From the NCBI GenBank assembly GCA_025057115.1, contig JANWWZ010000023.1:1-35145 (forward strand): 35,145 nucleotides of DNA, written 5' to 3'. The notes beneath the pieces are model-generated. The model saw nothing but the letters and a program-made list of their open reading frames with translations. It ran no database searches and was not told the DNA's origin. How positions within the stretch are numbered: position 1 is the stretch's first letter; every line of letters starts with the position of its first letter. Position numbers and translations under genes: made by a program. Origin of the DNA: Bernardetiaceae bacterium (GTDB lineage Bacteria; Bacteroidota; Bacteroidia; Cytophagales; Thermoflexibacteraceae). This document shows, one piece after another, positions 1 through 3,829 of the stretch.

Positions 1-24
1 CATAATGCCGTTGTTGGTGTTTTT

Positions 25-48
25 GTTGCGCGTGAAGACACGCGCAAC
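25..48 (-). repeat. Perfect palindrome, CG-type arms, inverted orientation
   Basis: Ten-base arms GTTGCGCGTG and CACGCGCAAC pair perfectly around loop AAGA. Read on the minus strand the loop is TCTT, as in the other units, so this copy is inverted. It lies inside the 41-base block repeated at 121-161. Confidence 0.85.
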
Positions 49-88
49 GGCGGGAAAAATGCTGTTGTTCGCGTCTTTAAAAACCGCC

Positions 89-112
89 GTTGTTCGTGTC
101 TCCACGAACAAC
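89..112 (+). repeat. Perfect palindrome, TT-type arms
   Basis: Ten-base arms GTTGTTCGTG and CACGAACAAC pair perfectly around loop TCTC. Compared with the CG-type unit both arms differ at the same two positions in a compensating way. Confidence 0.85.
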
Positions 113-134
113 CTTTGCCATTGTTGGTGTTTTT

Positions 135-158
135 GTTGCGCGTGAAGACACGCGCAAC
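135..158 (-). repeat. Perfect palindrome, CG-type arms, second inverted copy
   Basis: Identical to the unit at 25-48, including loop AAGA. It is part of the second copy of the exact 41-base block. Confidence 0.85.
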
Positions 159-176
159 GGCAAGAAAAAAACCGCT

Positions 177-200
177 GTTGTTTGTGTCTTCACGAACAAC
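177..200 (+). repeat. Palindrome, TT-type arms with one wobble
   Basis: Left arm GTTGTTTGTG faces CACGAACAAC around loop TCTT. The single departure from the consensus is a T opposite G, which still pairs as a wobble in RNA. Confidence 0.8.
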
Positions 201-207
201 GCTTGCC

Positions 208-231
208 GTTGTTGGTGTCCCCACGAACAAC
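208..231 (+). repeat. Palindrome, TT-type arms with one mismatch
   Basis: Left arm GTTGTTGGTG faces CACGAACAAC around loop TCCC. One G opposite G breaks the stem. The same GTTGTTGGTG left arm occurs without a right arm at 10-19 and, one base changed, at 120-129. Confidence 0.75.
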
Positions 232-244
232 CATAATTGACCCT

Positions 245-284
245 AAAAAGCAGCCTTTCTAAGTCAACTTTACGGCTGCTCTTT
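245..284. terminator. Possible weak bidirectional terminator hairpin
   Basis: AAAAAGCAGCC (245-255) can pair with GGCTGCTCTTT (274-284) with one mismatch and an 18-base loop. The T-run is only three bases, so termination is uncertain. It lies between the palindromic repeats and the pyrG promoter and could close a gene left of the window. Confidence 0.3.
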
Positions 285-291
285 GGACTAA

Positions 292-2007
<1,716 letters not shown>

Positions 2008-2020
2008 TCCTTGACGCGTC

Positions 2021-3829
2021 ATGGATAGAAATTCCACCATTGGCATCATCATCATCTCAGCGATGCTGTTGATTTACTTGGTTTTTTTTGCCTCTGGTCC
2101 TCAGCCGCCTCAATCCACCACTACTGGTGACAGCCTTCCGCCTGCCAGAGCGCAAAACTCTAGTTTACAACCTGTTTCTCCACCTACCTCTACCTTATCC
2201 GATTCGGCATTAAAAGCCAAGTACGGCATTTTTGCTCCCTTGCTCAAAGGACAAGCCACCGATTGGGTCCTCGAGAACAAAGACCTCCGCCTTACCTTGA
2301 CTACCAAAGGAGGGAGAGTAAAAGAAGCCCTGCTTAAAAACTACGTCACCTATCAAAAAACGCCTCTGGTGTTGATAGACCAACACAGCAGCACTACTCA
2401 ACTGCTGATAGCTACTTCAGTAGGGGAAATCAATTTGCACCAGCTCCACTACACTGCAAAACAACTCAGTAGCAATCAAATTACTTTCCGCGCCCAATTG
2501 GATAGCATTCACTACGTAGAACAGCGCTACTACTTGCCAGCAGAAGGATTCGTAGTGCAATGGCGAGCAGAAGTACACCTGCCAGAGAACCTACTCACGG
2601 ACTCCCTGGCTTACTTTTTCTGGACTGACCGACTCAAGCAACAAGAAAAGGACATTGAGCAAGTGCGCCTCACTGCAACGGTGAATTACTACCAAATCAA
2701 CAGTGGTATGGAACAGCTTTCCGAGACAGCCTCTGAAGCACAGGAAGCCCGTGCCACCGAACCCGTCCAGTGGGTAGCACTCAAGCAGAAGTTTTTCAAT
2801 GCGGCAATTATTACCAGCGGTTCTTTCCCCGAAGTCATTGTGCGCAGCCGTCCGCCTGCCCAGCCAGCAAAGGAAGTCAAGGAACTTTCCATGCAAGTAG
2901 GCATTCCACTGGGGGATTTAAAGGAAGAGGCAAAAAACATTCGCTTTTTCTACGGACCTAATCATTTCCGCATTGCAGAGCAGGTGGCTCCCGGCTTTGA
3001 AGACAACGTTTATTTGGGCTGGGCTATCTTCAGCACGGTGAACCGCTATATCATCATGCCGCTTTTTGAAGTGCTGGAAAGAGTATCCAACAACTACGGT
3101 GTGGTGATTTTGCTGCTGGTGCTGATTGTTAAAACGGCGCTGTTTCCGCTGGTATATCGCTCATACCAGTCAATGGCAAAAATGCGCGTGCTCAAGCCCG
3201 AACTAGACCAGCTTAAAGCCCAGTGTGGCGATGACTTGCAGCGCTTCCAGCAAGAGCAAATGAAACTCTACACTCAATTTGGCGTCAATCCCCTCAGTGG
3301 TTGCATTCCCGTCCTGTTACAGTTGCCCGTGTTGTTGGCTATGTTCAATTTCTTCCCCAATGCTATTCAACTGAGGCAAAAAGAGTTCCTCTGGGCTGAT
3401 GACCTTTCTTCCTATGATTCCATTTTAGACCTGCCCTTCCACATTCCTTTTTACGGCGATCATGTCAGCCTTTTCACCTTGCTTATGACTCTCTCCACCA
3501 TCGCCTATACTTACTACAACAACCAGCTTTCTACTAACATGGACCCCAGCATGAAGATCATGTCCTACGTAATGCCCATTATTTTCGTTTTTGTGCTCAA
3601 TTCCTTCTCTGCGGGTCTGACTTACTACTACTTCGTTTCTAACCTCATTACCATTGGTCAGCAGTGGGCTATTCGCAAGTTTTTCATAGATGAAGCTAAA
3701 ATAAGGGCAAAGTTGGAGGAGAATCGCAAAAAGTTTACTGACCCCAACCGCAAAAAAACGGGTTTCCAAAAGCGTTTAGAGGAAGCGCTCAAAGCCCAAG
3801 AAGAAGCCAAAAAGAACAAGAAGAAGTAA
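2021..3829 (+). CDS. yidC: Membrane protein insertase YidC
   Basis: Inserts and folds inner-membrane proteins, alone or with SecYEG. The 602-residue layout is that of Gram-negative YidC: an N-terminal membrane segment (about residues 5-26), a large periplasmic beta domain, then the conserved Oxa1-like insertase core (about 345-575). The core includes the FPLVYRSYQSMAKM stretch after the first core helix and the NPLSGCIPVLLQLPVLLAMF segment. The tail is rich in lysine, ending KKNKKK, which fits ribosome contact. It lies 13 bases after pyrG and 3 bases before gldC, so the three genes are probably one transcript. Confidence 0.97.
   Translation: MDRNSTIGIIIISAMLLIYLVFFASGPQPPQSTTTGDSLPPARAQNSSLQPVSPPTSTLSDSALKAKYGIFAPLLKGQATDWVLENKDLRLTLTTKGGRVKEALLKNYVTYQKTPLVLIDQHSSTTQLLIATSVGEINLHQLHYTAKQLSSNQITFRAQLDSIHYVEQRYYLPAEGFVVQWRAEVHLPENLLTDSLAYFFWTDRLKQQEKDIEQVRLTATVNYYQINSGMEQLSETASEAQEARATEPVQWVALKQKFFNAAIITSGSFPEVIVRSRPPAQPAKEVKELSMQVGIPLGDLKEEAKNIRFFYGPNHFRIAEQVAPGFEDNVYLGWAIFSTVNRYIIMPLFEVLERVSNNYGVVILLLVLIVKTALFPLVYRSYQSMAKMRVLKPELDQLKAQCGDDLQRFQQEQMKLYTQFGVNPLSGCIPVLLQLPVLLAMFNFFPNAIQLRQKEFLWADDLSSYDSILDLPFHIPFYGDHVSLFTLLMTLSTIAYTYYNNQLSTNMDPSMKIMSYVMPIIFVFVLNSFSAGLTYYYFVSNLITIGQQWAIRKFFIDEAKIRAKLEENRKKFTDPNRKKTGFQKRLEEALKAQEEAKKNKKK

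Follow-up and report, generated by a model that had tools for sequence, protein, structure and literature searches.

The window analysed here, a whole stretch of 35,145 nucleotides from a Bernardetiaceae bacterium, opens with a group of short palindromes, which raises the question of what kind of element they are and how they came to stand there. Contig C15 of a draft genome (G000; 3.0 Mb in 86 contigs, completeness given as 100%) starts with the window, whose position 1 is also the first base of the contig. Scanning the window with GTTGNNNGTGNNNNCACNNNCAAC, with up to two mismatches allowed, gave six matches, namely five hairpins with no mismatch and one match at 1465 with two mismatches. Shuffled windows gave 0.03 matches on average, and none of 100 shuffles got to six. 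The five palindromes with arms of 10 nucleotides and loops of 4 nucleotides that the preliminary description had reported were thus all recovered.

The arms fall into the two classes described before, GTTG-CG-CGTG (hairpins starting at 25 and 135) versus GTTG-TT-NGTG (89, 177 and 208), and the loops read as claimed, TCTC, TCTT or TCCC in the TT class and AAGA in the CG class. Pairing had been said to be kept in every full copy. It was found to be perfect in three of the five hairpins; the hairpin at 177-200 has a T-G and the one at 208-231 a G-G, both at arm position 7. On the strand that carries the TCYY loop, GCC stands directly 5' of every hairpin in the window, except for GCT at 174-176. 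Three further left arms without a right arm, also noted earlier, are present at 10-19, 64-73 and 120-129, and because they are preceded by the 5' tags GCC, GCT and GCC they are left halves of the same unit. The stretch 7-231 of the window is a mosaic built from a single family of repetitive extragenic palindromes (REPs), in which a unit consists of a 5'-[G/C]CC tag, a 10-bp stem with compensated positions and a GTG-TCYY-CAC tip.

Table 1. Features at the start of the window. Fold energies were calculated for single-stranded DNA and run from -6.6 to -13.9 kcal/mol.
Feature	Position	Strand	Details and basis
Left half-unit	7..19	+	Tag GCC 7-9, arm 10-19, no right arm; sequence
REP unit, CG class, hairpin 25-48	22..51	-	Tag GCC 49-51 (- strand); pattern; fold -13.9 kcal/mol
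Left half-unit	61..73	+	GCT 61-63, arm 64-73, no right arm; sequence
REP unit, TT class, hairpin 89-112	86..112	+	Tag GCC 86-88; loop TCTC; fold -10.4 kcal/mol
Left half-unit	117..129	+	Tag GCC 117-119, arm 120-129, no right arm; sequence
REP unit, CG class, hairpin 135-158	135..161	-	Tag GCC 159-161 (- strand); fold of 132-158 -13.9 kcal/mol
REP unit, TT class, hairpin 177-200	174..200	+	Tag GCT 174-176; one T-G; loop TCTT; fold -7.6 kcal/mol
REP unit, TT class, hairpin 208-231	205..231	+	Tag GCC 205-207; one G-G; loop TCCC; fold -6.6 kcal/mol
pyrG, CTP synthase, downstream of the cluster and outside the repeat	358..2007	+	NCBIfam E 2.8e-256

The preliminary description had proposed counting the copies across the genome and mapping them relative to genes. 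With at most one mismatch to GTTGNNNGTGNNNNCACNNNCAAC, 95 copies were found in G000 and none with the reversed control pattern. The stretches of this genome that were examined further were chosen from places seen in the genome and are no counted share of the 95 copies. Thirty clusters with 105 palindromes were looked at (a palindrome counted if it had five or more pairs outside the core, and from the window positions 1-3000 only were used), and they were placed between larger genes. Twenty-one of the 105 palindromes lie inside ORFs of 104-201 aa, which in our judgement arise by chance from repeat sequence. The gene neighbours were convergent at 8, divergent at 7 and co-directional at 10 of the 25 clusters that had both neighbours. 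At least six of the seven outer pairs were kept in 107 of 126 units. Five contigs (C11, C12, C15, C25 and C86) have a start or an end inside the repeat, so that the draft assembly breaks there. At one place in contig C2 (L067, 3399-3855) an array of tandem repeats of about 88 bp was seen, with four copies and 92% matches, each unit being one ATTGTTCGTGTCTTCACGAACAAT hairpin with a companion stretch; it is a composite repeat based on the REP, and its seed was also matched in L066, L068, L069 and L084.

In the 700 bases upstream of pyrG, no palindrome or arm was found in any of six relatives, so the pyrG cluster does not go back to the ancestor of the family. A comparison of gene order at pyrG with G002, of the same genus, was set aside, as L093 matched the window solely in repeats. 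In the stretches of G000 and G002, 85 units had TT/AA (75) or CG/CG (10) arms and none was mixed, in a count whose pattern restricted the left arm to TT or CG and the right arm to AA or CG, with no other right-arm letters admitted; within that pattern the matching of the two arms held in every case, as had been claimed. The CG units had also been called inverted relative to the TT units, and this was borne out by all eight CG copies with a TT neighbour within 150 bp. The other two of the ten CG copies in these genomes had no such neighbour, and one of them has an atypical loop.

In a wider scan of one genome per species, GTTGTTYGTGTCYYCACRAACAAC, the exact core, was found in 75 stretches; it was found in none of the scanned viral contigs. 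The named organisms include Mucilaginibacter, Dyadobacter, Runella, Lacihabitans, Flectobacillus, Bernardetiaceae and others, all of which we take to be Bacteroidota; the placement was made by organism name, and 341R_metabinner_26, called only 'bacterium', was left unplaced. In that genome (L152, L174, L175 and L178) head-to-head pairs lie 45 bp apart with similar inner sequence and are REPIN-like. The palindrome has the same flanks in two MAGs of different names (L127 4419, called Flavobacterium, and L162 128, called Chitinophagales), and either contig may have been put in the wrong bin.

Covariation was assessed on every GTGTCYYCAC, with pairing not required and identical 24-mers merged. Outside G000, position 2 from the tip was Watson-Crick in 64 of 66 distinct units, as compared to a mean of 29.6 and a maximum of 39 after shuffling, and position 4 was paired in 59 of the 66, then always as G-C. 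Within G000 the signal was weak (position 1 paired in 27 of 42 distinct units, with a shuffled maximum of 27), and because these 42 units show little, the claim of covariation rests on the wider family. With 95 copies in the genome and arm changes compensated across genera, the preliminary description was not refuted by its own test, which named a motif confined to this locus or uncompensated arm differences elsewhere. The CC of the tag 5' of the stem was conserved at 97% and 92% in the 147 units with at least six of seven pairs, and the bases 3' of the hairpin were near background apart from a shortage of G. GTAG or GT[AG]G was absent from the foot, where the tag is [G/C]CC. Neighbouring units in other genomes were mostly head-to-head (28, with 11 tail-to-tail and 8 direct, n = 47), and the corresponding numbers were 9, 14 and 55 in G000 (n = 78), 4, 3 and 0 in G002 (n = 7) and 6, 10 and 4 in the flanks of the transposase genes described below (n = 20).

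A candidate enzyme for the repeat was discovered by clustering ORFs close to palindromes across species, and by that route only. Among eight recurrent palindrome neighbours compared with Pfam, six were ordinary and were discarded (a sigma factor, MatE, IF-3, DsbD_2, a Cys/Met enzyme and a sigma-54 regulator). One of the other two had no Pfam match; the other, a protein of 170 aa in four genomes, was also without a Pfam match at E 0.001, and against NF047646, the NCBIfam model of REP-associated tyrosine transposases (RAYTs), it scored 75 bits (cut-off 80; E 5e-21). All 14 members used of the clade to which it belongs matched NF047646, and the motifs NH[LIV]H, WQR and Y-x-H-x-N-P are common to them. 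A PDB search with the clade at E <=1 returned a sole match, E. coli TnpA_REP (4er8, E 1.5e-4).

GTGTC-tipped palindromes lie within 700 bp of the RAYT gene in 12 of the 14 clade members, on both sides in eight; eleven of the 12 carry a TCYY loop of 4 nucleotides, and L244 has a loop of 3. Likewise, 12 of the 13 best-scoring RAYT loci had such palindromes within this distance; L263 is close to a contig end. In a tree of 50 RAYTs, kept from 78 loci after those below 70 bits, shorter than 140 aa or identical in sequence were dropped, the 12 fell in one clade of 14 with support 100/99. The exceptions, L266 and L293, had no such palindrome even with one mismatch, nor imperfect hairpins nearby. Three of the genes (L260, L261 and L262) were first found through the adjoining palindromes and so were picked for the association that they display, which counts against the link; three others (L290-L292) came from a survey without palindrome selection, and all adjoin palindromes. 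This survey covered 157 other genomes of the phylum, of which three had the palindrome and six the RAYT subgroup; the three are all among the six, for which the chance, calculated by hand, is about 3e-5 if the genomes are independent. In the three palindrome genomes the RAYT genes adjoin such palindromes. Also against the link, the three remaining genomes with the RAYT subgroup lack the searched palindrome, as do L266 and L293. Two genes close to the clade in the tree, L267 and L268, adjoin a related palindrome with the loop TTGT, which suggests that hairpin and RAYT protein change together. Taken with L295, these are RAYTs beside GTG...CAC-tipped hairpins with other loops (TTTT/TTGT in L295), possibly sister REP classes. 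The clade is likely the cognate enzyme of the repeat, and a member is present in G007, of the same family as the genome of the window.

The genome of the window itself is different. None of G000, G002, G003 and G009 gave a RAYT or Y1 transposase when searched with PF01797, NF047646 and an alignment (A2). PF01797 is a poor probe for these proteins (best E 0.0011 among the 14 clade members), and since it barely sees the clade its null was not trusted alone; therefore NF047646, A2 and a further alignment, A3, were added. At E <=10, the one match with A3 among these four genomes was in G003, at E 0.18; the other three, G000 included, gave nothing. In the fourth genome of the genus, G001, there was no match to the repeat, one match to PF01797, a weak NF047646 match to an ORF of 235 aa, no match with A2 and two with A3 (E 0.11 and 0.24). 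The RAYT or IS200-like transposase that the preliminary description had suggested looking for was thus not found in G000, and present-day mobility in this genome is unproven. Y1-transposase loci were also considered and rejected: none of 60 such loci carried a full palindrome of this type, and when the set was widened by 20 weaker loci the yield was a different GTGTC hairpin at one of 80 (L221). The REPs of G000 look like orphans after RAYT loss, and a recent loss is possible. According to PMC3686654, loss of the RAYT is one explanation for REPs without one.

We consider it quite probable that the cluster consists of REPs moved in trans by a RAYT of the clade found here, and that the enzyme was lost in this genome and its copies were orphaned. 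A unit would fold as single-stranded DNA, with the [G/C]CC tag at the 5' foot of the 10-bp stem and GTG-TCYY-CAC at the tip, and would be the substrate of the RAYT (TnpA_REP), an HUH/tyrosine single-strand nuclease. By analogy with the TnpA_REP systems that have been studied, the enzyme would cut beside the folded unit and carry it in trans to new intergenic sites. It would recognise tag and loop, leaving the stem letters free to change if both arms change. After loss of the enzyme the copies would stay as orphans, and local duplication and deletion may have reshaped the clusters into direct arrays and half-units. Direct arrays do not simply follow RAYT loss, because G002 is also without a RAYT and has none among its seven pairs. 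The REP/BIME reading of the preliminary description was right, given high-copy intergenic compensated palindromes, a loop that marks orientation, some inverted pairs and a RAYT clade beside like palindromes elsewhere; its MITE alternative was judged unnecessary.

The pairing of the G000 units is better than would be expected of long-dead orphans, and two other readings of the same REP family address it. The RAYT might be present in the living genome and absent only from the draft, since a gene flanked by REPs is prone to end up in an assembly gap. We hold this to be rather doubtful: the five contigs that begin or end in the repeat and the good pairing of most copies are consistent with it, but completeness is given as 100% and the same-genus genomes G002 and G003 yielded no RAYT either, A3 giving nothing in the one and the single match at E 0.18 in the other. 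Less likely still, the REPs may outlive their RAYT in this genus, kept numerous and well paired by a host function or by RAYT-free local copying of tag-arm half-units. A side prediction that goes with this reading is that the CC tag would be the guide and would set cutting at a GG-type dinucleotide and not at CT.

Readings without a RAYT fare worse. A role of the hairpins as RNA, being kept as 3'-end, terminator or stability elements, is improbable. The hairpins are stable by fold and one terminator-like match was found (112-89, - strand), but shuffled sequences gave 1.2 such matches, divergent neighbours were as frequent as convergent ones, and G-T stem mismatches were not in excess over A-C (7 against 4 in the genome of the window, 16 against 12 in others); Rfam at gathering scores matched in none of eight sources. 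Conservation of the palindromes across genera would also suit sites at which a protein recognises double-stranded DNA, for instance a segregation or nucleoid factor. We regard this as very improbable, as the stem varies with compensation while the loop and the one-sided tag are fixed, which fits folded single-stranded DNA better, and as the palindromes are clustered and patchy, with 3 of 157 phylum genomes having them. That clustered repeated palindromes are the remnant of an IS200/IS605-type element, a CRISPR-like array or a phage-borne repeat is hardly to be expected here: the search of G000 for a Y1 transposase and that of viral contigs for the repeat both came up empty, none of 60 Y1 transposase loci had a full palindrome, and the spacing is irregular.

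The family has to be placed among the known systems. PMC6006769 describes a mainly Bacteroidetes TnpA_REP subclass, 2.6, in which the genes have atypical structures on their flanks; these structures lack GT[AG]G and occur repeatedly in the genome. The repeat family of the window resembles it in being from Bacteroidetes, in having RAYTs next to hairpins without GT[AG]G of which further copies exist in the host genome, and in the motifs NH[LIV]H and WQ in all 14 clade members; it differs in that the published motif YIH[QN]NP is found in only four of the 14 and in that the genome of the window is without a RAYT. Judged by that description and by the protein motifs, the family is very probably of the subclass 2.6 kind. 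The kind, as far as this source goes, is already known, as the atypical REPs of Bacteroidetes TnpA_REP genes.

With the GTAG REPs of E. coli, Pseudomonas and Stenotrophomonas, as presented in PMC3733652 and PMC8266576, the family shares a 5' tag at one foot, a stem-loop, some inverted pairs, intergenic clusters and, in relatives, an adjoining RAYT. It is unlike them in its [G/C]CC tag, its fixed TCYY loop and the mostly direct arrays of G000. CGTC-tagged REPs, in PMC3733652, have comparable stems of 8-9 bp and loops of 4-5 nt and count Bacteroidetes among their host phyla. No RAYT flanked by them is given there, whereas the present family does adjoin RAYTs in relatives, and it has no CGTC tag and no CCA-like tail. 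PMC8266576 shows that what TnpA_REP reads in a folded single-stranded REP is the tag together with features of the loop or the stem, and that in one system the position of the cut can be determined by the tag. Searching the literature for the repeat strings gave only papers unrelated by title, which is no proof that the repeat is unpublished.

The analysis yields a definition of the repeat by sequence ([G/C]CC, a compensated 10-bp stem and GTG-TCYY-CAC) together with its likely cognate RAYT clade. The repeat accounts for the contig breaks of the draft at REP sites. GTAG cannot be the basis of recognition in this Bacteroidota REP family, and there is now a set of genomes, some with the RAYT and others lacking it, in which one can ask what keeps REPs alive. 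If the REPs do outlive their RAYT in this genus, a REP population can persist without its transposase.
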